Positions 4,926 to 16,377 of a stretch of 64,000 nucleotides of DNA are shown here, one piece after another. A model generated the notes under the pieces. The model ran no database searches. It had not been told where the DNA came from and worked only from the letters and a program-made list of their open reading frames with translations. Location of the stretch: assembly GCF_000744415.1 (NCBI RefSeq), contig NZ_JQLW01000008.1, positions 186,001-250,000 of the forward strand, written 5' to 3'. Every line of letters begins with the position of its first letter. Positions within the stretch are counted from its first letter, which is position 1. Both the position numbers and the translations under genes were made by a program. The DNA comes from Ghiorsea bivora. Its GTDB lineage: Bacteria; Pseudomonadota; Zetaproteobacteria; Mariprofundales; Mariprofundaceae.

Positions 4926-5756
4926 TTATTCTTTTATACCATCCATATTCATATTTTGCATGTCCATATCATCCATGTTTATACCTTCCATGTTCATTTT
5001 TGGCATGGTATGTGTGTTGGGATGCATCTCATGGTTCATGGGCATAGAATGCCCAGAGTGATTCATGCCTTGCATATTATCCATATCATGCATGCTATGC
5101 ATGAAGGCACTGCCGCGAATCATGGTGAATGCACCCATTAAAATCAGTAGTATTGCAGCAATTTTTAAAACCCAGCCACGCGCTTTGGGTGATGCTGATT
5201 TGAGCACCACAGGTACAAACATCATCGCTGGCACAGTGCCCAATCCAAAAGCCATCATCATGGCAGCCGATAACCCTATACTGCCAGAGGTTAGGCTAAG
5301 TGCTAAACCTGCATAGACCAAACCACAAGGTAATAAACCATTGAATAAACCAACCATGAACCAACTCATGGGCATGCGACTATTTGTCGCAGTATAAATC
5401 CATTTACTTAGCCCAACCACGCGACTCAATTGTGACATTATTTTTACCAATGGGTCAGGCACCGAGCCTGCAAGGGTAAGCCCGAAAAGTATCATCAAAC
5501 TACCTGCAAATAGCGTGAGACCACGTTGCACATCTGCAAACCAAGTCACTTGGGTAATCACCATGCCCATCATGCCAGCCAATAAACCTAAAAATGTGTA
5601 AGTGAGTATTCGACCCAGTTGGTAACTTATAAGCCCAGTCCACCATGTCCTTTTTTGAGACATAGCAAGAGTTGTGACAAGCCCTCCACACATCCCTACA
5701 CAATGTAAGCTGCCTAAAAAACCCACCAAAAATGCTGCGCCTAAAAGTGTTGTCAT
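4926..5756 (-). CDS. SafE/DsbD_2-type membrane protein with Met/His-rich tail
   Basis: A 276-aa polytopic membrane protein of about six spans. It carries the paired Cys motifs typical of the DsbD-like 'cytochrome c biogenesis transmembrane' family often annotated as sulfite exporter TauE/SafE: SLHCVGMCGG (about residues 16-25) and LFNGLLPCGLVY (about 137-148). Such genes often sit in cbb3 oxidase clusters and are thought to serve copper or thiol traffic for oxidase assembly. Unusually, the last 58 or so residues form a soluble tail with 16 Met and 7 His, including MHSMHDMDNM and MNMDGIKE, consistent with Cu(I) or Ag binding. It starts 12 nt after the upstream unknown gene and abuts the 40-aa peptide. 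Confidence 0.85.
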   Translation of the reverse strand: MTTLLGAAFLVGFLGSLHCVGMCGGLVTTLAMSQKRTWWTGLISYQLGRILTYTFLGLLAGMMGMVITQVTWFADVQRGLTLFAGSLMILFGLTLAGSVPDPLVKIMSQLSRVVGLSKWIYTATNSRMPMSWFMVGLFNGLLPCGLVYAGLALSLTSGSIGLSAAMMMAFGLGTVPAMMFVPVVLKSASPKARGWVLKIAAILLILMGAFTMIRGSAFMHSMHDMDNMQGMNHSGHSMPMNHEMHPNTHTMPKMNMEGINMDDMDMQNMNMDGIKE

Positions 5757-5768
5757 GATTTGTTGTTC

Positions 5769-6443
5769 CTATTTCTGTTGATTATTCACCAGTGGCTGTA
5801 GGAGCTCTTGGTCAAACACATCGGGTGACACAAATTGCAAAATATGTGCACCACCAGCTGGCTGAATTAAGTCTAACCCCAGTTGTGGATAAAGAAAATG
5901 TGCGTTGCCCTGCCTATCGCTGAGAATTTTATCAGGTTTGCCAAAATGTTCTTGAAAAGCCTCAAATTTAATTTGTCGCCCTGCAAGTATTGTGATGCTG
6001 CTAATAGTGAGGTGTTGCAAGCTAGGGTATAATTTTTGTCTTATGCCAACCCGAATCACATCATTGGGCATCCATTCGGGTTGATATGCTTCTTTTTTAA
6101 TGTGTTGCAGTAGTTTTTTGTCGGCAAGCAGTGTTATAATAACATTATCACCTTCATCAAAAACATCTGCAAAAAATGCTTCAAGGTGCATGGGTGGCTC
6201 AGGTTGGTTTTTACCTTGGCGGCGGGTGAAAAGGGCAACCTTGGGCGGTGTTTTCAGGGTATTTATAGCATCATTAAGTTGACTTTTATTTAAGCTTAAG
6301 CCCAACACAGTTAAAGTATTAGAACCTGGTTGGATATTCCACCAGGTTGGACGAGGGTTGGGTTCACTGTTTGGAAAAAGAACGTATAATACGGCTGCAA
6401 TAGCTAGACCTGCAATGATGCGATAAACCCACTTGGTTGACAT
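5769..6443 (-). CDS. Membrane-anchored protein of unknown function, copy 2 of a paralogous pair
   Basis: A 224-aa protein with an N-terminal anchor (about residues 7-23) and a soluble domain predicted outside the membrane. It aligns end to end with the protein at 6943-7572. Shared features are the opening LTVLGLSLNKSQ versus LHVMGIVLGEST, an acidic middle (LEAFFADV versus LEAYFPSI), a PNDVIRVGI versus PNGVIRMNL block and a late FGKPD versus FGKPE. I cannot name the family. The ribosome-binding site AAGGA precedes ATG 6443. It heads a run with the SafE-type protein and the 40-aa peptide inside the cbb3 locus, so a role in oxidase assembly is plausible but unproven. Confidence 0.75.
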   Translation of the reverse strand: MSTKWVYRIIAGLAIAAVLYVLFPNSEPNPRPTWWNIQPGSNTLTVLGLSLNKSQLNDAINTLKTPPKVALFTRRQGKNQPEPPMHLEAFFADVFDEGDNVIITLLADKKLLQHIKKEAYQPEWMPNDVIRVGIRQKLYPSLQHLTISSITILAGRQIKFEAFQEHFGKPDKILSDRQGNAHFLYPQLGLDLIQPAGGAHILQFVSPDVFDQELLQPLVNNQQK

Positions 6444-6547
6444 AAATAATCCTTTTGTTTTGGAATGGAATGATTATTGCCGATGTTGATGCATTGACAA
6501 GGAAAAGAGGTATTTTGAGTATAATTTCTAATGCAGCAAGAGAAATC

Positions 6548-6576
6548 TTGGCAGGTGACTTATTATCCTGTATAAT
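6548..6576 (+). promoter_or_regulatory. Sigma70-type promoter of the DUF2892 gene
   Basis: TTGGCA (6548-6553), 17 nt, then a perfect TATAAT (6571-6576). Transcription would begin near 6583, leaving a leader of about 70 nt before the ATG at 6653. Confidence 0.65.
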
Positions 6577-6603
6577 ACGCTCAAAATAAAAATGGATACC
6601 ATA

Positions 6604-6617
6604 GTGATTCTCATCAC
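6604..6617. promoter_or_regulatory. Perfect palindrome resembling a CRP/FNR-family operator
   Basis: GTGAT-TCTC-ATCAC matches the symmetry of the FNR consensus TTGAT-N4-ATCAA with one symmetric change per half-site. It lies about 20-35 nt downstream of the predicted start of transcription, where a bound regulator would normally repress. The site is shared by the divergent gene at 6443. Binding by a specific factor is inference. Confidence 0.4.
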
Positions 6618-6652
6618 TTGAGGGTGTTTTAAATAGAGCGGAGGAGTGAGGA

Positions 6653-6871
6653 ATGAATAGTAATGTTGGAACAGTAGATCGTACTTTACGTGTTGTTTTT
6701 GGTCTTGGTTTTGCCTTGGGTGGTTGGTTCACTGAAGATGGCGGTGCTATGAGCATGATATTTATTATTGTGGGATTGGTATTGGTTGTTACAGGTTTGA
6801 CGAGTCGTTGCCCAATTTATAAAGTGGCAGGTATTGAAACAAATGAAAAACCAGATCCACGTGGTCATTAA
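6653..6871 (+). CDS. DUF2892 (YgaP-like) small membrane protein
   Basis: 72 aa. It begins MNSNVGTVDRTLRVVFGLG, the usual start of DUF2892 proteins (N-x-G-x-x-D-R-x-x-R), followed by two membrane helices (about residues 13-28 and 33-49) and the CP-containing end SRCPIYKVAGI. In YgaP-type proteins this domain is fused to a rhodanese. Here it stands alone, as is common. A strong ribosome-binding site (GGAGGAGTGAGG) precedes the ATG. It is the only plus-strand gene in the minus-strand assembly block and separates the two paralogous unknowns. Function is not established. Confidence 0.85.
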   Translation: MNSNVGTVDRTLRVVFGLGFALGGWFTEDGGAMSMIFIIVGLVLVVTGLTSRCPIYKVAGIETNEKPDPRGH

Positions 6872-6900
6872 TTCTTAATTGAATAAAGTGTTTTGTAAAA

Positions 6901-6924
6901 AGGCGACCTTGGGTCGCCTTTTTT
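6901..6924. terminator. Intrinsic terminator, probably bidirectional
   Basis: Stem AGGCGACC / GGTCGCCT with loop TTG, followed by T5 on the plus strand and preceded by a run of A, so it can also act on the minus strand. It sits between the convergent DUF2892 gene and the end of the ccoG-H-I-S run. Confidence 0.9.
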
Positions 6925-6942
6925 ATGCCTGTTTTAAGGAAG

Positions 6943-7572
6943 TTATGGGTTATTAAACGTTAGTTTATCGTTGTCATCCTGATTGATGGTTGCAACCAAA
7001 CCAATTTTGGGAAACGTATATACTGTGATATTTGGGCTGGTGTTGGTTACCGATTCAGGTTTACCAAATTGTGCCATAATTATTTCTTCTGTAAGTTGTA
7101 CACTTGGAATAAGTGACATTTCAGTAATTATCATGCGTCGCACAGCCAAAATATCTTGACTGGATAAGTTCATGCGAATCACCCCGTTGGGGTATATTCG
7201 TGGGCTAGCGCTACGTTTACGTATAGCTTCTAATGCCGTATCCGTAATTTTTAATGTGAGTAATACTTTACTGTGGTCGGCAATGGATGGGAAATAGGCT
7301 TCAAGCTTACCCGTATATTGCGCTTCTTGCCCTTCTTTTGTTTCTTTAGGGTATAAAAATAAAGCCGCATCAGTACGGCTCCTAAATGCCAGTTCAGCAT
7401 CACGAACAGTGCTTTCACCCAGTACAATTCCCATAACATGCAGATGTTGTTTTTCATCAAAGAAAGTTCGTTGTTTTGTGGACTCTCCAGACTGCTTATA
7501 AACGGAACTGGTAATGTAAAATGTAGCTGAGCCAACAATAAGAATCAGTGCAAGAGATATTTTCCACATCAT
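6943..7572 (-). CDS. Membrane-anchored protein of unknown function, copy 1 of a paralogous pair
   Basis: A 209-aa protein with an N-terminal anchor (about residues 4-22) and a soluble domain outside the membrane. It is homologous along most of its length to the product of 5769-6443 (see FGKPE, LEAYF, PNGVIRMNL). Its ATG directly follows the stop of ccoS, so it is translationally coupled as the last gene of ccoG-H-I-S. It ends 19 nt before a bidirectional terminator. No named family was recognised. Being tied to ccoS and duplicated nearby makes it a good candidate for an uncharacterised cbb3 maturation factor, but this is context only. Confidence 0.78.
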   Translation of the reverse strand: MMWKISLALILIVGSATFYITSSVYKQSGESTKQRTFFDEKQHLHVMGIVLGESTVRDAELAFRSRTDAALFLYPKETKEGQEAQYTGKLEAYFPSIADHSKVLLTLKITDTALEAIRKRSASPRIYPNGVIRMNLSSQDILAVRRMIITEMSLIPSVQLTEEIIMAQFGKPESVTNTSPNITVYTFPKIGLVATINQDDNDKLTFNNP

Positions 7573-7800
7573 TTAATTCGCGCCACCATCTGATTTGTTT
7601 TCTAATTCTTTCTTTTTAAGGTCTGCGTGAGGCACTTTTTTTGCAGATTCAGGAATCATATCTTCATCATCCATAAGTATGCGGAATGCCTCACCTGCCA
7701 TATCATCATATTGGTCAGATTTGACTGACCAACGAAAGACTAGCAAGGCAATGATACTAAAGAGTAGCGCAGCTGGAATCAGCATTAAAATAATATCCAT
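7573..7800 (-). CDS. ccoS: cbb3 oxidase maturation protein CcoS
   Basis: 75 aa: one N-terminal membrane helix (MDIILMLIPAALLFSIIALL), then FRWSVKSDQYDDMAGEAFRI, matching the CcoS pattern of a helix followed by a W-x-V-x-S-x-Q-[FY]-D-D-x-x-x motif. In Rhodobacter and related bacteria CcoS is needed to insert cofactors into the cbb3 oxidase. It lies 5 nt after ccoI and abuts the unknown gene at 7572. The Asp/Glu/Lys-rich tail is longer than in some CcoS proteins. Confidence 0.93.
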   Translation of the reverse strand: MDIILMLIPAALLFSIIALLVFRWSVKSDQYDDMAGEAFRILMDDEDMIPESAKKVPHADLKKKELENKSDGGAN

Positions 7801-7805
7801 ATCAG

Positions 7806-10289
7806 TTATCCTTTGACGCGTTTATGAATGAGCAAAGCATTGCCTATAACCAATAAAGAAGAAACAGGCATTGCAATAGCTGCAAACAATGGATGAATCA
7901 TACCACCCATTGCAAGTGGAATAACCAAGATATTGTAGCCCAAGGATAAAGCAAGGTTTTGTTTGATGGTTTTCATGGTTTGTGTGGATAGGCTAAATGC
8001 AGTAGGCAATTTGTTTAAGCCTCCCAACAATACAACATCGGCGGCATGTGCTGAAACATCTGTAGCTTGCCCCATGGCAATGCCAACATCAGCTTGTGTT
8101 AGTGCTGGTGCATCATTCACACCATCACCAACCATACCCACGTGAAAACCTTGGGTTTGCAACGCTTTAATTTTGTCAGCTTTTTCACCTGGTAATACTT
8201 CGGCAATCACTTGAATGGGTTCAAGCGTATCTAACTGTGCAGCAATGGCTTGCGCTGATGCTTTTCGGTCACCGGTGAGTAAACTTACAATCACACCTTG
8301 CGATTGAAGGGCACGAATGACAGAAGATGATTCGTCTCGCAGCTCATCGCCAAGAGCCACCCAAGCTAAGAGCTCTTTATCATTAAAGATAACAACTAAG
8401 GTATGCCCTTGTTGTTCTTCGTGTTGCAGTTGTTTGCTTATTTCATCGGTTAAAACTATACCTTCAGATAAAAGCCAACCCAATGAGCCAACATGTAATA
8501 GCGATCCATTAAAACTTCCTTCAACACCACGCCCTGCAATATTGTTAAATTTTGATAAGTTTTTATCAGTAGGGAAGGGTTCTAGTGCTGAGACAATAGC
8601 TTGGGCCAAGGGATGTTCGGATGCTTGCTCTAAAGCATGAACTTGCGACCATAGTTGGCTTTCATCTTTGACCAAGACTTGCTGGTGTACCACTGTCAAT
8701 TGTCCGTGGGTAAGGGTGCCTGTTTTATCGAAGACGATATGATTAAGATGTAATAATTGTTCCAGTGCGCTGCCGCGTTTGATGAGTACACCCAGTTTTC
8801 CACCAAGGCCTGCACCGATGGAAATTGCCATAGGTGTTGCTAGCCCCAATGCACAAGGGCAGGTAATGATAAGCACGGTGACAGCAGTCATGGTTGCGGT
8901 TGCAAAGTCAGCCTGATTAAACCAATACAAAAATGTCACAGCCGATAAAGCCAAAATAATAGTCACAAACCAAGGCACAATTTTATCTGCAACACCCTGA
9001 ATCTTAACTTTTGAGTCTTGGGCTTGTTCTACAAGTTCTACAATTTGGGATAACACTGATTCATGTCCAAGGTGGGTGGCTTTGATTTTGAGTTGTCCTG
9101 AGATGTTTTGTGTGCCGCCAACGACTTGACTACCTTGTTTTTTGATAAGAGGGCGAGATTCACCAGATATAATGGATTCATCCACTTCGGAGTACCCGTC
9201 CAAGACTTCCCCATCAACGGGTACGCGGTCTCCAGGTTTTATGCGTAAAATATCACCTTGTTTAACAGAGCGAAGCGGAATCAGTTCCTCATCACCATTA
9301 TCATGAATCAACCTTGCAGCACGGGGTAATAATGCCAATAAATGACGCGTGGTTGAGCCTGCTGTTTCACGAGCGGAAGACTCTAAGAAACGCCCAACAA
9401 GTATCAAAAACACAAACATGGAAACCGAATCAAAATAAACATGGTGCTCAACAGTGTCAGGGTTGAAGATGGTAACATAAGAAGACCATAAAAAGCTGGT
9501 GCTGATGCCAATTGAAATGGGTAAATCCATATTGGGTTTAACTGCTTTGATAGACTTCCACGCACCAATAAAAAAAGTACGCCCAGAATAGGCTATACCC
9601 GCAAAGGTAAGTACCATGGAATACCATTCAAACACGGCGCGCCATTCATCGGCAATGCCAAAAAACGAACCGCCATACAAACAAACTGCGGCAGTCATAA
9701 CATTGGCAAATACAAAACCTGCAAATGCCATGCGAAACAGAAGGTCTTGTCGACGAGCTTTATTGGCTTTTTGTTCAAGGTCTTCTTGATAAGGGATAGC
9801 TTGGTAGCCAAGTTTACCCATTACTAGAATAGCTTCGGACAATAACATCTCATCAGGTTTCCAGCGTAGACGAAGACGACGGCGCGTAAGGCTAACATCA
9901 GCAAAAGTGACGGCATCCATGTGTTGCAAGGCTTGTTCGATTAACCAAACACAAGCTGGACAATGGATGCCTTCAATCAATAAGTCAGCTTGGTATGTGC
10001 CATCAGGAAACTGGCGAACAAAGTCAGCTTGAAGCTCTAAGCTATCAAAAAGTTTGGCATCTTCAGGCGCTTGTTCAGGGGTGTTCCAGTCACGTGATTC
10101 TGGTGCGAATTTATAAAATGAATCCAGTCCAGAGTCATGGATAATAGCACATACTTGAGCGCAACCGGTGCAACAAAAATCATGTGATTCATCTTGGATA
10201 TCAGCATGAATAATATTTTGTTTTGTCAGCATTAAACCACAATGAAAACAAGTGCCTTCAAGTGCTTCTGTTGGATTTTGTGTGTTCAC
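7806..10289 (-). CDS. ccoI: Copper-exporting P1B-type ATPase CcoI/FixI
   Basis: 827 aa. Copper ATPase required for loading the cbb3 CuB centre. Visible in order: a Cys-rich N-terminal metal-binding segment (C14-x2-C17, then CCTGC near 39-43), an HMA-like domain with CPAC at 110-113, transmembrane helices, the membrane metal site CPC in TCPCALGLATP (about 475), the phosphorylation motif DKTGTLT (about 518), and the hinge GDGVNDAPAL (about 725). This matches the CcoI/FixI/CtpA branch and not CopA, because of the Cys-rich N-terminal extension and the operon. It sits between ccoH and ccoS with gaps of 12 and 5 nt. Confidence 0.95.
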   Translation of the reverse strand: MNTQNPTEALEGTCFHCGLMLTKQNIIHADIQDESHDFCCTGCAQVCAIIHDSGLDSFYKFAPESRDWNTPEQAPEDAKLFDSLELQADFVRQFPDGTYQADLLIEGIHCPACVWLIEQALQHMDAVTFADVSLTRRRLRLRWKPDEMLLSEAILVMGKLGYQAIPYQEDLEQKANKARRQDLLFRMAFAGFVFANVMTAAVCLYGGSFFGIADEWRAVFEWYSMVLTFAGIAYSGRTFFIGAWKSIKAVKPNMDLPISIGISTSFLWSSYVTIFNPDTVEHHVYFDSVSMFVFLILVGRFLESSARETAGSTTRHLLALLPRAARLIHDNGDEELIPLRSVKQGDILRIKPGDRVPVDGEVLDGYSEVDESIISGESRPLIKKQGSQVVGGTQNISGQLKIKATHLGHESVLSQIVELVEQAQDSKVKIQGVADKIVPWFVTIILALSAVTFLYWFNQADFATATMTAVTVLIITCPCALGLATPMAISIGAGLGGKLGVLIKRGSALEQLLHLNHIVFDKTGTLTHGQLTVVHQQVLVKDESQLWSQVHALEQASEHPLAQAIVSALEPFPTDKNLSKFNNIAGRGVEGSFNGSLLHVGSLGWLLSEGIVLTDEISKQLQHEEQQGHTLVVIFNDKELLAWVALGDELRDESSSVIRALQSQGVIVSLLTGDRKASAQAIAAQLDTLEPIQVIAEVLPGEKADKIKALQTQGFHVGMVGDGVNDAPALTQADVGIAMGQATDVSAHAADVVLLGGLNKLPTAFSLSTQTMKTIKQNLALSLGYNILVIPLAMGGMIHPLFAAIAMPVSSLLVIGNALLIHKRVKG

Positions 10290-10301
10290 AGATGTTAAAG
10301 T

Positions 10302-10862
10302 TTAAAGTGTGATGAAATTAACGATTTTTTCAAGCGTTGTAGGTTCTTCATTGCTTTTACCTTTAATGACTACACGTTTGTTTAACATGTGTTTGTCTTC
10401 ATCTTTGGCAAAAAGGAGGTTCATATCCCAAATGCCAGGTGTTAGCAGTGTTAGCTCTGCCTGATAGACTCCTTCCTTGTCTGTTTCCTTAAGATTAAGC
10501 AGTACATCAGCTTTAGCATCGCTGGGGCGATATGCCCTTAGTTCAGCATGACCATGGCTGATAGGTTGTGCATACTGATCCGTAACAACCAAAGTAATGA
10601 TGCTGGGTTGATTGGCTTGGATGGCATCATCAATTTGTAGGTCAACATTCCACCCGCGCTCTGCTTGTGTTCGATATTGACGGTCAAATTTATTTTGCTG
10701 CAAGCCGTATTTGTAGTATTTTTCAGTGACAAGACCTGGGCTGGTATCAAGTGCTGCTGTTACAAATCCAAAGTTAACAGTAAATACAATGGCAAAAAGT
10801 GCTAGCACTGACCATACATAAGGGCTACGAAAAGCTTTATTTTTTTTATTGGGTTTATTCAT
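10302..10862 (-). CDS. ccoH: FixH/CcoH family cbb3 assembly protein
   Basis: 186 aa. One membrane helix near the N-terminus (SPYVWSVLALFAIVFTVNFG, about residues 13-32) is followed by a periplasmic domain with the FixH signature (SPGLVTEKYYKYGLQQNK at about 40-57 and a later ARLVV-like block, PISHGHAELRAYRP). CcoH is needed for stable cbb3 assembly and contacts CcoN/CcoI in Rhodobacter. It starts 3 nt after ccoG and ends 12 nt before ccoI, a classic ccoGHIS order. Confidence 0.92.
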   Translation of the reverse strand: MNKPNKKNKAFRSPYVWSVLALFAIVFTVNFGFVTAALDTSPGLVTEKYYKYGLQQNKFDRQYRTQAERGWNVDLQIDDAIQANQPSIITLVVTDQYAQPISHGHAELRAYRPSDAKADVLLNLKETDKEGVYQAELTLLTPGIWDMNLLFAKDEDKHMLNKRVVIKGKSNEEPTTLEKIVNFITL

Positions 10863-10865
10863 GGT

Positions 10866-12287
10866 TTAATTTCCTGGTCCAAAGAACATTGATTCATAGG
10901 TTTTAGTAAGCTCAGGATGATCCACAGCTTCTAGTTTAAGTGTGATGGGCTGGCGACCACCACTTAAATTCTTTTGTGGTACTTTTACAAGCAGGTCAAT
11001 TTTTTTCGCTTGCCCACTTGTAAGTTTAAGCACTTTATTGTCGAAGTTGGTAGTGATGCCATCAATACCTGTAACTTTCAGGGTAAAGTTAGCTGCCAAC
11101 TCGGTTTTATTGAGAATAATAGCATGATACATATTCTGAATCGTACGGTCAGACATGACTGTATATGTTGGGCTGCGCTCATGATTTACATTCATGTCCA
11201 AGTCTGCCTTGAAGAATATAGTGTACATAATACCAGTAAATGTAATTGCTGTAGCCAACATATAAATCATAGGTCGTGGGCGTAAAAAACGTTTGCCTGC
11301 TGAAAGGTTGTTTTCTAATTCATGATAGGACATGAAGCGAATCAAACCTTTCTCGCGTCCAACTTTGGTCATAATATCATCACATGCATCAATACATAAA
11401 CCGCAGTTAATACACCCAATCTGACTGCCATCGCGAATATCGACACCTGTTGGGCATACTGATACGCACATATTACAATCTACACAATCACCTTTATCGC
11501 TATTATCTTGTCCTTTTTTAACGCGACCACGTGGTTCGCCACGATGATAATCATAAGTGGTTGTAATCGTATCTTTGTCTGTCATCACCGCTTGAATACG
11601 GGCATAAGGGCAAACCCAGTTGCAAATTTGTTCGCGAACAAAACCAGTGTTGATATAAAATAAAAAGAATACAAACCAAAAGGATACCCACTCGTACACA
11701 TTGTAGTCTAAGTTGAACAACTTAGACCAAGCATTGTCTATACCAGAGAAGTAGCCCAGAAAAGTTACGGAAGTCAGTGTGCAAATGGTAACCCACATCA
11801 AATGTTTAAAGACTTTTTTACGAATTTTCTCTGCGTTCCAAGGCATGGCATCCAGCTTGATGCGTTGGCGAGCAGAGCCTTCGGCCCAACGCTCCGTAAG
11901 GGTCATTAAGTCTGTCCACATGGTTTGTGGGCACATGGTTCCACAAAAAATGCGCCCAGCAATCGCAGTCATGGAGAATAAGAGAATAAATGCAAATAAC
12001 ATCAGCAAAGCAAGAATAAGTAAGTCTTGTGGCCAAATGGTGACATCAAACAAATAAAATTTACGGGCTGGGATATCAAAATAAATGGCTTGTCTACCAT
12101 TCCACGTAAAGTAAGGTAGAATGAAAAAAGGTATTAAAAGTGTTGCCATGGTTAACCATTTAATATTTCTGAACCGCCCAGAAATACGGCGGGCGTGTAC
12201 AGTGGAATCACCCGAATTGATATTCCAAACAGCATAATCCTCATGCTCAATCAAATAATCTGATTTCTTTGTTTGTGTCTCAGGCAT
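10866..12287 (-). CDS. ccoG: Polyferredoxin-like cbb3 accessory protein CcoG/FixG/RdxA
   Basis: 473 aa with several membrane helices. Motifs include CGTMCPQTMW (about 116-125), CNWVCPYARIQ (about 220-230), and a soluble dicluster ferredoxin region with CVDCNMCVSVCP and CINCGLCIDACD (about 265-310). The C-terminal third is an Ig-like FixG domain. CcoG is a membrane protein of cbb3 biogenesis, reported to reduce Cu(II) so that Cu(I) can be delivered. It is the first gene of the assembly run and diverges from the oxidase genes, with about 230 nt of control region between them. Confidence 0.96.
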   Translation of the reverse strand: MPETQTKKSDYLIEHEDYAVWNINSGDSTVHARRISGRFRNIKWLTMATLLIPFFILPYFTWNGRQAIYFDIPARKFYLFDVTIWPQDLLILALLMLFAFILLFSMTAIAGRIFCGTMCPQTMWTDLMTLTERWAEGSARQRIKLDAMPWNAEKIRKKVFKHLMWVTICTLTSVTFLGYFSGIDNAWSKLFNLDYNVYEWVSFWFVFFLFYINTGFVREQICNWVCPYARIQAVMTDKDTITTTYDYHRGEPRGRVKKGQDNSDKGDCVDCNMCVSVCPTGVDIRDGSQIGCINCGLCIDACDDIMTKVGREKGLIRFMSYHELENNLSAGKRFLRPRPMIYMLATAITFTGIMYTIFFKADLDMNVNHERSPTYTVMSDRTIQNMYHAIILNKTELAANFTLKVTGIDGITTNFDNKVLKLTSGQAKKIDLLVKVPQKNLSGGRQPITLKLEAVDHPELTKTYESMFFGPGN

Positions 12288-12350
12288 AATAGCAAATCCT
12301 TCCTTTGTTCTTCATTATGATGAATTTTACCGTATAATACTATTATTGGT

Positions 12351-12370
12351 TGTAATTCATCTAAATTACA
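12351..12370. promoter_or_regulatory. Palindromic candidate operator between ccoG and the oxidase genes
   Basis: TGTAATT-CATCTA-AATTACA is a perfect 7+7 inverted repeat with a 6-nt spacer, in the 232-nt intergenic region shared by the divergent ccoG and the ccoNOQP block. It does not match the FNR consensus. The remainder of the intergenic region is AT-rich, with a possible promoter TTGTTA-N17-TAAAGT (12446-12474) for the plus strand. The binding factor is unknown. Confidence 0.4.
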
Positions 12371-12519
12371 GTTGCGCAAAATCGTATAGAATCTATTTCC
12401 ATAAGTCCAAATATAAAACCATAACCAATGTAGGGAAAATAATGCTTGTTAAAATATTTTAATGGTTTTAAAGTTCCGCCAAGTGAAAAATTCTCGAATG
12501 GAGAAACAGGAGGGATAAT

Positions 12520-12603
12520 ATGCCGTTTATCTTAGGATTTGTTTATTATTTTACGTTTGTTGCGATTGTAGCTATTACATCAATGATAACAGGCGCAGTT
12601 TAA
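12520..12603 (+). CDS. 27-aa single-span membrane peptide upstream of ccoN
   Basis: ATG at 12520 has a strong ribosome-binding site (AGGAGGG, 5 nt spacing). The peptide begins MPFILGFVYYFTFVAIVAI and is almost wholly one membrane helix ending in SMITGAV. It is similar in size and position to accessory one-helix subunits such as CcoM of Pseudomonas stutzeri, but I cannot show homology. It is the first gene of the oxidase transcription unit, 46 nt before the next gene. Confidence 0.65.
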   Translation: MPFILGFVYYFTFVAIVAITSMITGAV

Positions 12604-12649
12604 TATCTAATAAGAGTTAGATGAATTTAATATTAAAAGGAGTTGAGGT

Positions 12650-12844
12650 ATGAATGAAATAGAAAAACCTGGTCATGTCTTGTTCAATGCTGATGCATGG
12701 ATTTTCAATGACCCAGTAGTATTCTGGTCAGTTTTTACTGTGCTGTTTGCGGTTAGCATGGTGATTTATGCTATTCGCGTAGCATTAAAAAAAGCTGAGC
12801 AAGAAAGGTTGGAAAAAGAAAAGAAGGGAGGAACTAACTCGTGA
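12650..12844 (+). CDS. 64-aa one-helix membrane protein upstream of ccoN
   Basis: 64 aa. A soluble N-terminus (MNEIEKPGHVLFNADAWIF), one helix (about residues 22-44, FWSVFTVLFAVSMVIYAI) and a strongly charged tail (KKAEQERLEKEKKGG). The ribosome-binding site GGAGTTGAGG lies close to the ATG. Its stop overlaps the GTG start of ccoN by 4 nt, so the two are translationally coupled. The family is not recognised. It could be an additional cbb3 subunit or assembly factor. Confidence 0.8.
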   Translation: MNEIEKPGHVLFNADAWIFNDPVVFWSVFTVLFAVSMVIYAIRVALKKAEQERLEKEKKGGTNS

Positions 12845-14271
12845 GTTCTGTAGCTGAAAAAGACGAATATAATTACGATATCGTTAAGTTTTGCGTTATC
12901 GTAGGTATTATGATGGGTGTGGTTGGTACGGCCATTGGAACATGGGTTGCATCTGAGTTGGCTTGGCCATTTTTAAACTTTGATGTTGCTGAAATAAGCT
13001 TTGGTCGCCTGCGCCCAGTGCATACCAACACCGTGATTTTTGGTTTTGGTGGGTTCTTATTGTATGGTGCAGGTTTTTATATGGTGCAGCATGCAACACA
13101 TGCACGTGTAGCATTTGAAAAAGTTGCATGGGCAGCTGTATATTTATGGTTGTTTGCCATGGTTTGTATTTGGATTACTTTGCCATTGGGCTGGACACAA
13201 TCCAAAGAGTATCATGAGCCAGAGTGGTGGATTGACATTATCATGGCAGCTTCTTGGGTTTGCATGACGATTTCTTTCTTAGGCACAATTGCAAGACGTA
13301 AGATGTCTCATATCTACGTTGGTCTTTGGTTCTTCATGACCATGTTGTTTATGGTAACTTATATCTTCGTGTTTAACGGTCTTTGTATTCCAGTTGATAT
13401 GACTTTTTCATATTCTGCTTATGCTGGTATTCATGATGCGATGACACAATGGTGGTGGGGACATAACGCGGTTGGTTTCTTCCTAACAGCGGGTTTTATT
13501 GGTGTGATGTATTACTTCGTACCAAAACATGCGAACCGTCCTATTTACTCTTACCGTTTATCAGTGTTGCACTTTTGGTCTTTGACTTTCTTGTATGTAT
13601 GGGTTGGCGCACATCACCTTCACTACACTGCAATTCCTGATTGGACACTTTCTCTAGGTGCTGGTATGTCTATCGCGCTTATCTTCCCATCTTGGGGTGG
13701 TATGATTAACGGTATGATGACCATGTCTGGTGCTTGGGATAAAATTCGTACTGACCCTGTGATGCGCTTCATGGTTGTAGCCCTTGCATTCTACGGTATG
13801 TCTACATTTGAAGGCCCATTGATGGGTACGAAATCTGTGAATGCACTTTCTCACTACACTGACTGGACAGTTGGTCATGTACATTCAGGTGCTTTGGGCT
13901 GGAACGCAATGATTGCGATTGGCGCGATGTATCACATGATTACACGTATGTGGAATACTGAAATGTGGTCTGCAAAACTTGTAAACACACATTTCTGGGT
14001 TCATTTGACAGGTGCAATTTTCTACATCACAGCAATGTGGGGTTCTGGTGTATTGCAAGGTTTGATGTGGCGTGCATTTGATGAGTACGGTAACTTGGTT
14101 TATACCTTTGCTGACTCTGTTGCTGCTATGCATCCTTTCTATGCATTACGTGCACTTGGTGGATTCCTCGTATTCTGTGGCTTCTGCATCATGTTGTTTA
14201 ATACACTAAAAACTATTAGCGCAGTGAAAGCGGGCACAAACGTCATGCTTACAGCTGAAGCTAGAGCATAA
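12841..14271 (+). CDS. ccoN: cbb3 cytochrome oxidase catalytic subunit I
   Basis: 476 aa, normal for CcoN. It holds heme b, heme b3 and CuB and reduces O2 with high affinity. Visible ligand regions: the low-spin heme His in RPVHTNTVIFG (about residue 60), the CuB region WWWGHNAVGFFL (about 203-214), VGAHHLHYTAIPDW (about 257-270, two adjacent His), and the heme ligands in YTDWTVGHVHSGALG (about 341-355). About twelve helices are evident. The start is a GTG overlapping the upstream gene by 4 nt. ccoO follows after 10 nt. Confidence 0.97.
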   Translation: MSSVAEKDEYNYDIVKFCVIVGIMMGVVGTAIGTWVASELAWPFLNFDVAEISFGRLRPVHTNTVIFGFGGFLLYGAGFYMVQHATHARVAFEKVAWAAVYLWLFAMVCIWITLPLGWTQSKEYHEPEWWIDIIMAASWVCMTISFLGTIARRKMSHIYVGLWFFMTMLFMVTYIFVFNGLCIPVDMTFSYSAYAGIHDAMTQWWWGHNAVGFFLTAGFIGVMYYFVPKHANRPIYSYRLSVLHFWSLTFLYVWVGAHHLHYTAIPDWTLSLGAGMSIALIFPSWGGMINGMMTMSGAWDKIRTDPVMRFMVVALAFYGMSTFEGPLMGTKSVNALSHYTDWTVGHVHSGALGWNAMIAIGAMYHMITRMWNTEMWSAKLVNTHFWVHLTGAIFYITAMWGSGVLQGLMWRAFDEYGNLVYTFADSVAAMHPFYALRALGGFLVFCGFCIMLFNTLKTISAVKAGTNVMLTAEARA

Positions 14272-14281
14272 GGAGAATACG

Positions 14282-15127
14282 ATGTCTGAATACAAAAAAG
14301 AAGGTGGAATGATTCGCGGTATTCCTCATGATACCATCGAATCAAACTTACCTATTTTAGCAGTCTTCGTAGCTATCTTGGTAGCGGTGGGTGGTATTGT
14401 GGAGATTATTCCTGCATACCATTTGGAAGATTCTGAGCCGAATGTTGAAGGTGTGCGCCCATTGACGCCACTTGAGCTTGAAGGTTTTGCTATTTTCCGT
14501 CGTGAAGGTTGTTTCTTATGTCACTCGCAAATGATTCGTCCTTTTCGTGATGAAAAAGAACGTTATGGTCACTTCTCGTTAGCGATTGAGTCGGGTTTCG
14601 ACCATAACTACGCTTGGGGTTCAAAACGTACTGGTCCTGACTTGGCACGTGTTGGTCATAAATATACCGATGCATGGCATATTCAACATTTGCGTCATCC
14701 ACGTTCAGTTGTTCCTGAATCTGTAATGCCAAATTACTATTTCTTAGAAGAACGTAAGTTGGATACAAGCTTGACCAAGAAACGTATGGAAGTGTTGGCC
14801 ATGATGAATGTGCCGTATAGCGCTGACGATATTGCGAATTGGGAAGCGGATTTGAAAGCACAAGCTGGCGTTGATGACGGTGAAGGTGAAGATGCTCTTC
14901 GTGCTAGATATGAACGTAAAACTTGGAAGCATGATGGTAAAGTGATTCAGTGGACTGATTCATTTGAACCTACTGAGTTGAATGTACGTGCATTTGATGG
15001 CGATGCTTCTGATGTTACTGAAATGGATGCATTGATTGCATACCTACAGCAGCTTGGTACACATGTTCACTTTGAAGAAGGCGTTGACTATTACCATGAT
15101 AAATTTGGTCAACCTTACCGTGAGTAA
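14282..15127 (+). CDS. ccoO: cbb3 oxidase monoheme cytochrome c subunit II
   Basis: 281 aa. N-terminal membrane anchor (about 25-44) and a single heme c site CFLCHS (about residues 77-82), with a probable Met ligand downstream (SVMPNYYF). It passes electrons from CcoP to CcoN. The C-terminal part (about residues 180-250) is extended compared with short CcoO proteins and is rich in acidic and Trp residues (AQAGVDDGEGEDALRARYE). Ends 3 nt before ccoQ. Confidence 0.96.
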   Translation: MSEYKKEGGMIRGIPHDTIESNLPILAVFVAILVAVGGIVEIIPAYHLEDSEPNVEGVRPLTPLELEGFAIFRREGCFLCHSQMIRPFRDEKERYGHFSLAIESGFDHNYAWGSKRTGPDLARVGHKYTDAWHIQHLRHPRSVVPESVMPNYYFLEERKLDTSLTKKRMEVLAMMNVPYSADDIANWEADLKAQAGVDDGEGEDALRARYERKTWKHDGKVIQWTDSFEPTELNVRAFDGDASDVTEMDALIAYLQQLGTHVHFEEGVDYYHDKFGQPYRE

Positions 15128-15130
15128 TAC

Positions 15131-15283
15131 GTGAGCTTTGGTACGTTAACCATTCTTATATGCCTTTTTACGGCGATTGCCTATGTGGCTTTCTTCCGTA
15201 AAAAGGACGAAGAGTATACAAATCAAAAAAACATTATTTTCGATGAAGATAATGATAATATTTCCGAGGAGGGAAAATCATGA
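15131..15283 (+). CDS. ccoQ: CcoQ-like small subunit of the cbb3 oxidase
   Basis: 50 aa from a GTG start 3 nt after ccoO. One helix (SFGTLTILICLFTAIAYVAF), a basic RKK turn, then an acidic tail (IIFDEDNDNISEEG). This is the CcoQ pattern of Y/F-GTL, helix, basic turn and acidic end. CcoQ stabilises CcoP in the complex in other bacteria. The stop overlaps the ATG of ccoP by 4 nt, and the ribosome-binding site of ccoP (GAGGAGGG) lies inside this gene. Confidence 0.85.
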   Translation: MSFGTLTILICLFTAIAYVAFFRKKDEEYTNQKNIIFDEDNDNISEEGKS

Positions 15284-16377
15284 GTGATCATAACGCTCCA
15301 AATGATGGCAGCACAGGCCATGAGTGGGACGGCATTAGAGAATTAACCAATAAACCACCAACGTGGTGGGCTTGGGGCTTCTATATAGGCCTTACCTTCG
15401 TAACATGTTACTACATCATTTATCCATCAACACCGCTAAACCTTAAGATGCAAAATGCTATTAATAGTATCACGGGAACAGAAATGTTTGTTCACGGACA
15501 CTCGAAAGGTATTATGGGTGTATTGGGCATCAATAAATACTACGAAGGTGAAAACTGGACTCAGTCTGAAATTGATGCATTAAAAGCTAAAGGTTATAAT
15601 GAGCTAACCATTAAAGCTGGCGATCGCAAGTATTTGAATGGCTGGACAGCTATCAATGAAATGCGTGATGATGTAGCTGAAATTGAAGCTGTTCGTGAAG
15701 GTTACATGAAGAAATTGGCAACCATGTCTGCAGATGAAATTATTGCAGATGATGAAATGCGTCAATTTGCATTGGGTCGTTCAGTGGTGTTGTTCGGTGA
15801 TAACTGTGCAGCATGTCATGGCTCTGGTGGTCAAGGTAACTTGAACAAAGCACATCCTGGTGAATCATTTCCAAACTTAACTGATGATGATTGGTTGTAT
15901 GGTGGTTGGACTGCAAAAATCATTGAAACCATTACAGATGGTCGTCAAGCTGAAATGCCTCCTAAAGGTGGGAATGACGAGCTAACTGCATCGGATGTTG
16001 ATAAACTTGCTACATTTATTCATGATGGTTTGTCAACGGGTGATGCTGAGCTTAATGATGATGGTGAGTTGGTGAAAGGTGCTAACAATCCAACATTTGC
16101 AGCTGCAAATGAGCTTTTCCAAGAAACCTGTGCTGGTTGTCATAGTGCAAACGCTAAAGGTTCTATGCTAAATGGAGACTTTGATACAGGTGCTGTAAAC
16201 TTGACTGATGGTATTTGGCGTTTTGGTGGCAATTTAGCAACCATTAAAGAAACCATTACCAACGGACGTAAAGGTACTATGCCTGCATGGGGCGGTCGTC
16301 TTGATGAAACATCAATCAAGATTTTAGCTGTTCGTGTACACCAAATGGGTGGTGGCATGGCTGCTGAGCCTGAATAA
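15280..16377 (+). CDS. ccoP: cbb3 oxidase diheme cytochrome c subunit III
   Basis: 365 aa, somewhat longer than the usual 290-310. An N-terminal CcoP motif (HEWDGIRELTNKPPTWW) leads to one membrane helix. Two cytochrome c domains follow with heme sites CAACHG (about 179-184) and CAGCHS (about 285-290) and probable axial Met in EMPPKGG and TMPAWGG. It accepts electrons from soluble cytochromes. It is the last gene of the oxidase set and is followed 23 nt later by a strong terminator. Confidence 0.97.
   Translation: MSDHNAPNDGSTGHEWDGIRELTNKPPTWWAWGFYIGLTFVTCYYIIYPSTPLNLKMQNAINSITGTEMFVHGHSKGIMGVLGINKYYEGENWTQSEIDALKAKGYNELTIKAGDRKYLNGWTAINEMRDDVAEIEAVREGYMKKLATMSADEIIADDEMRQFALGRSVVLFGDNCAACHGSGGQGNLNKAHPGESFPNLTDDDWLYGGWTAKIIETITDGRQAEMPPKGGNDELTASDVDKLATFIHDGLSTGDAELNDDGELVKGANNPTFAAANELFQETCAGCHSANAKGSMLNGDFDTGAVNLTDGIWRFGGNLATIKETITNGRKGTMPAWGGRLDETSIKILAVRVHQMGGGMAAEPE

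Follow-up and report, generated by a model that had tools for sequence, protein, structure and literature searches.

A previously unnamed family of membrane-anchored proteins linked to the cbb3 oxidase in Zetaproteobacteria

Lineage-specific additions to the cbb3 oxidase machinery have been described in Campylobacter jejuni, where ccoX, ccoY and ccoZ encode membrane proteins of unknown family that are required for full activity; among them CcoZ, a membrane-associated protein of 200 aa, co-migrates with the oxidase and with bc proteins (PMC8267372). Copper reaches cbb3 through periplasmic delivery by SenC/Sco and PCuAC/PccA (PMC8475189), the PCuAC motif being given as H(M)X10MX21HXM (PMC8267372). 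In addition, CcoH/FixH and CcoS/FixS are small inner-membrane proteins with biogenesis or accessory roles in cbb3. Here we describe two related proteins, X1 and X2, which like the Campylobacter proteins are lineage-specific and cbb3-linked, are close to CcoZ in size, are encoded near ccoH and ccoS (X2 probably in one operon with them), and lie at a locus where periplasmic copper delivery would be the natural pathway. They are found in Ghiorsea, a genus of iron- and hydrogen-oxidizing Zetaproteobacteria, within a 64,000-nucleotide stretch (the window) of a 2.15 Mb genome. The full cbb3 locus occupies bases 4926-16377 of the window, as follows.

4926-5756, minus strand: DsbD_2/SafE-type membrane protein (PF13386) with a His/Met-rich C-terminal tail of ~70 residues
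5769-6443, minus strand: X1, 224 aa, a periplasmic-type domain behind an N-terminal membrane anchor; opens the X1-SafE pair
6473-6500, minus strand: promoter-like TTGTCA-16-AATAAT (10/12) upstream of X1, a consensus match only, the region total not exceeding that of shuffles
6548-6576, plus strand: promoter-like TTGGCA-17-TATAAT (11/12) upstream of the DUF2892 gene, a consensus match only
6653-6871, plus strand: YgaP-like_TM/DUF2892 small membrane protein (PF11127, E 4.6e-20)
6897-6924: hairpin with A/T flanks, terminator-like on both strands (z -4.6 on plus, -6.5 on minus)
6943-7572, minus strand: X2, 209-aa paralogue of X1, closing the series ccoG-ccoH-ccoI-ccoS-X2
7573-7800, minus strand: ccoS (FixS), by Pfam/NCBIfam search
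7806-10289, minus strand: ccoI, P1B-type copper ATPase (Pfam)
10302-10862, minus strand: ccoH (FixH; Pfam)
10866-12287, minus strand: ccoG (FixG; Pfam)
12841-14271, plus strand: ccoN (COX1/CcoN)
14282-15127, plus strand: ccoO (FixO)
15280-16377, plus strand: ccoP (FixP)

The minus strand thus reads ccoG, ccoH, ccoI, ccoS, X2, then X1 and the SafE-type gene, and the plus strand carries ccoN, ccoO and ccoP. The TAA of ccoS directly abuts the ATG of X2, and the SafE-type gene starts 12 bases after the end of X1. Between X1 and X2, on the opposite strand and in a position kept across the window's genus, lies the gene of the PF11127 family, earlier named DUF2892; the hairpin at ~6897-6924 stands between the ends of this gene and of X2. 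Because the hairpin appears bidirectional and a promoter-like site lies 5' of X1, X2 probably ends the ccoGHIS transcription unit, and X1-SafE is probably transcribed on its own, divergently from the DUF2892 gene. A preliminary description of this DNA had placed two unknown proteins on either side of a DUF2892 gene in a cbb3 cluster, one coupled to ccoS and the other heading a SafE-type run; the Pfam matches agree with this layout, the first protein being X2 and the second X1. We note separately a 64-aa single-helix reading frame directly 5' of ccoN (12650-12844, plus strand), seen in the two-copy genomes of the class and without a Pfam match, which is possibly a CcoQ/CcoM-like small subunit.

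Pairwise BLASTP shows X1 and X2 to be homologues (60 bits, E 7e-16, 25% identity over 150 aa), and the order of motifs previously proposed to be common to both could be located in each: an anchor, LEAFF at X1 87-91 or LEAYF at X2 89-93, PNDVIR at X1 126-131 or PNGVIR at X2 127-132, and FGKP at X1 167-170 and X2 168-171. Neither X1 nor X2 nor any of 41 relatives passes the cut-off of a Pfam or NCBIfam model or has a significant match among PDB sequences. Our searches of the literature brought up no account of the family, and plasmid relatives were not found either. The proteins were therefore rightly called uncharacterised, and the family they form is a genuine one that had neither a name nor an entry in Pfam or NCBIfam. 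The 41 members include no match to the Campylobacter families DUF5130/TPM (CcoZ) or DUF4006 (CcoX), and ccoX, ccoY and ccoZ lie downstream of ccoP, whereas X lies by ccoS or SafE. Likewise, CcoH/FixH and CcoS/FixS belong to other Pfam families and are each a separate gene here; FixH (PF05751) has no match in X1 or X2, the true FixH being the product of 10302-10862.

In all 41 members tested, the only hydrophobic segment is the N-terminal one. This supports the periplasmic-type label given to these proteins earlier, and the soluble domain would face the periplasm, an orientation with which the charge rule is consistent in just 28/41 members. Residues that hardly vary across the family are structural ones, namely the Glu in LEAFF/LEAYF, the Gly and Pro in FGKP, and a GL pair.

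The location of X beside CcoI, CcoS, CcoG and a His/Met-rich SafE raises the idea that X is itself a copper or redox chaperone delivering Cu to CcoN. Its composition makes this very improbable: cysteine is absent from all 41 sampled members, the Sco CxxxC, PCuAC H(M)X10MX21HXM and thiol CxxC motifs occur in none of them, His and Met together make up just 3-7% of residues, and the one frequent His column (H182 of X1) is not retained in the X2 clade. Lacking Cys and any known copper motif, X falls outside the Sco, PCuAC and thioredoxin-type chaperones.

The AlphaFold models are confident (pLDDT 89.6 for X2 and 95.2 for X1). The top PDB fold match of the X2 model in Foldseek is the DUF4309 protein YjgB of Bacillus subtilis (PDB 4ygt; probability 1.00, TM 0.51 by target length, E 1.7e-3, rmsd 8.5). 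The DUF4309 Pfam profile matches none of the 41 members, and YjgB is not among the matches listed for the X1 model, which has no significant match among PDB folds or viral structures; for X2, too, the fold search falls short of a significant PDB match. An internal two-repeat structure, prompted by TBP-like and DUF4309-like fold matches, received no support from alignment of the two halves with hhalign (P ~0.1).

We then examined the distribution of the family among 78 zetaproteobacterial genomes. It is present in 39, every one of which also has ccoN and/or ccoS, while 33 genomes have neither X nor cbb3; the other six have cbb3 and no X, and none of these exceeds 85% completeness. When the set is restricted to genomes of 90% completeness or more, 24 have both, 18 have neither and none is discordant (Fisher 6e-16 for all 78 and 3e-12 for the more complete set, values that ignore relatedness). 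X presence also follows cbb3 inside mixed genera (g9, with 15 carriers and 8 non-carriers, g5 and g10), and these joint splits indicate several joint gains or losses. X has cbb3 or SafE genes within ~5 kb in 34/39 carriers; in one more (G026) its locus stops at a contig edge, and in four (G067, G085, G089 and G092) it is unlinked from the cbb3 genes, though each of these genomes still has cbb3. Where the contig extends far enough in two-copy genera, X2 comes after ccoS and X1 before SafE. Zetaproteobacterial X is tied to ccoS and SafE, both biogenesis genes, and is seldom placed with ccoNOP. The motif used for the contig scan, [YF]FP[SA]IADH, is strict and misses X1-type relatives, which came from profile searches. 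In two loci (L115 and L139; Mariprofundus ferrooxydans PV-1) ccoS-SafE-X stands ~12 kb from ccoI with a ~3000-codon reading frame between them, and in another zetaproteobacterial locus (L122) X lies near nuo genes.

All X1 loci that include the relevant gene end have X1 ahead of the SafE-type gene, among them two with the X1-SafE pair moved out of the cbb3 operon. In all 12 X1 loci read, the SafE partner has a tail of 48-75 residues containing 26-41% His+Met (35% in the window protein, 4926-5756, minus strand), whereas in single-copy genomes the tail is mostly short or poorer, an exception being L058 with 26% over 43 residues. From its composition this tail looks like a copper-binding, copper-holding arm, and it would be periplasmic if the protein shares the six-helix layout of the CcdA/DsbD core, as expected for this family.

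Outside the class, a sample of the phylum (Pseudomonadota) yielded two further X carriers, and profile searches in the order of these carriers, presumably betaproteobacterial, detected X in 22 of 349 genomes and added one further carrier. All 22 have ccoN, compared with 235/349 (67%) overall (hypergeometric 1.2e-4, ignoring relatedness). Carriers lacking cbb3, which would speak against the link to this oxidase claimed in the preliminary description, were thus sought in both groups and none was found (0/39 zetaproteobacterial, 0/22 in the betaproteobacterial order), and the co-occurrence with ccoS or ccoN holds in other genomes. The genomic link of the X family to the cbb3 oxidase is therefore strong.

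In nine genomes of one betaproteobacterial family, X is beside, and convergent with, ccoS. Nine betaproteobacterial cbb3 loci (L134:10362-10880, minus strand; L168-L171, L175-L177 and L187) have, next to X, a gene for a membrane protein of 173 aa that reaches no Pfam cut-off. In most betaproteobacterial carriers outside that family the linkage to cbb3 is lost, and X is found after nuoN or by ndk or coq7, neighbours which indicate that its partner could be another respiratory complex. Furthermore, ~90% of the cbb3-bearing genomes in the order have no X, so X is not generally required. Such distant copies with varied neighbours, occurring in several betaproteobacterial families, together with the many cbb3-bearing genomes that do without X, could mean that X has no role in cbb3 and is either a passenger in the cluster or part of some other periplasmic process in microaerophiles. 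We consider this distinctly unlikely, however, as the unlinked copies are still confined to genomes with cbb3, and X presence follows cbb3 within several genera.

Two loci of one betaproteobacterial genus (L133:8447-10627 and L172) have X directly 3' of nuoN, a possible link to complex I. This adjacency, which suggests contact with other respiratory complexes, bears on the main rival to a biogenesis role, namely that X remains with cbb3 as an accessory subunit or tether, holding it to CcoH, the bc1 complex or complex I in the manner of CcoZ. A single anchor with a folded periplasmic-type domain free of metal ligands would suit such a protein, and the co-migration of CcoZ with the oxidase and bc proteins gives, by analogy, a functional precedent, though by Pfam not a homologue. 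On the other hand, the tie of zetaproteobacterial X to ccoS and SafE, and seldom to ccoNOP, is not what a subunit or tether suggests, and X has no Pfam match to the DUF5130/TPM family; on balance we regard this reading as rather unlikely.

Phylogenetic analysis separated, with good support, X1 (100/94) from the betaproteobacterial sequences (99/96) and both from a third group that joins X2 to the single-copy zetaproteobacterial sequences (100/99). The X1 clade was found only in the window's genus and one other (g3), and most relatives have one X copy. X1 and X2 had earlier been called a duplication; their homology stands, but their positions in separate, deep clades rule out a recent tandem event. 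They are instead an ancient paralogue or xenologue pair and, the tree being unrooted, X1 may be an early paralogue that other lineages lost, or may have been acquired later. In two Nitrosomonadales MAGs, X2-type copies nest among Mariprofundus sequences, likely through horizontal transfer. One of these is inside a cbb3 cluster; the other (L121:9396-10522) comes right after a bacterial globin, near hydrogenase genes, in a genome that has ccoN.

Taken together, the homology of X1 and X2, their anchors, the near-perfect co-occurrence and the linkage to ccoS/SafE rather than to ccoNOP support a role in cbb3, and we infer that X is probably, as first proposed, a maturation factor. Our preference, held by a narrow measure of confidence, is for an inner-membrane-anchored periplasmic protein that acts by protein contact in the biogenesis or stability of cbb3. 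In such a scheme the periplasm-facing X domain would assist the assembly or stabilisation of CcoNOP through protein contact, with X2 partnering the CcoG-H-I-S machinery. X1 would partner the SafE-type transporter, whose His/Met-rich tail would serve as a periplasmic copper-holding arm, and might present the nascent oxidase with copper-loaded or reduced partners while itself binding no metal. A bolder version, which we think quite unlikely, is that X represents a new family with a fold not among solved structures: a Cys-free, membrane-anchored periplasmic scaffold that would pass nascent cbb3 between CcoGHIS (through X2) and the Met/His-armed SafE (through X1). Copper insertion would then have a variant with two arms, confined to some iron oxidizers.

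In Ghiorsea genomes from the Favne vent field, cbb3 is the only terminal oxidase type reported (PMC10734525), which makes its assembly central to these iron- and hydrogen-oxidizers. X provides a specific gene candidate, new to Pfam and NCBIfam, that tracks cbb3 closely, and its distribution suggests that Zetaproteobacteria and some Betaproteobacteria have cbb3 parts beyond the known list (CcoGHIS, Sco, PCuAC).
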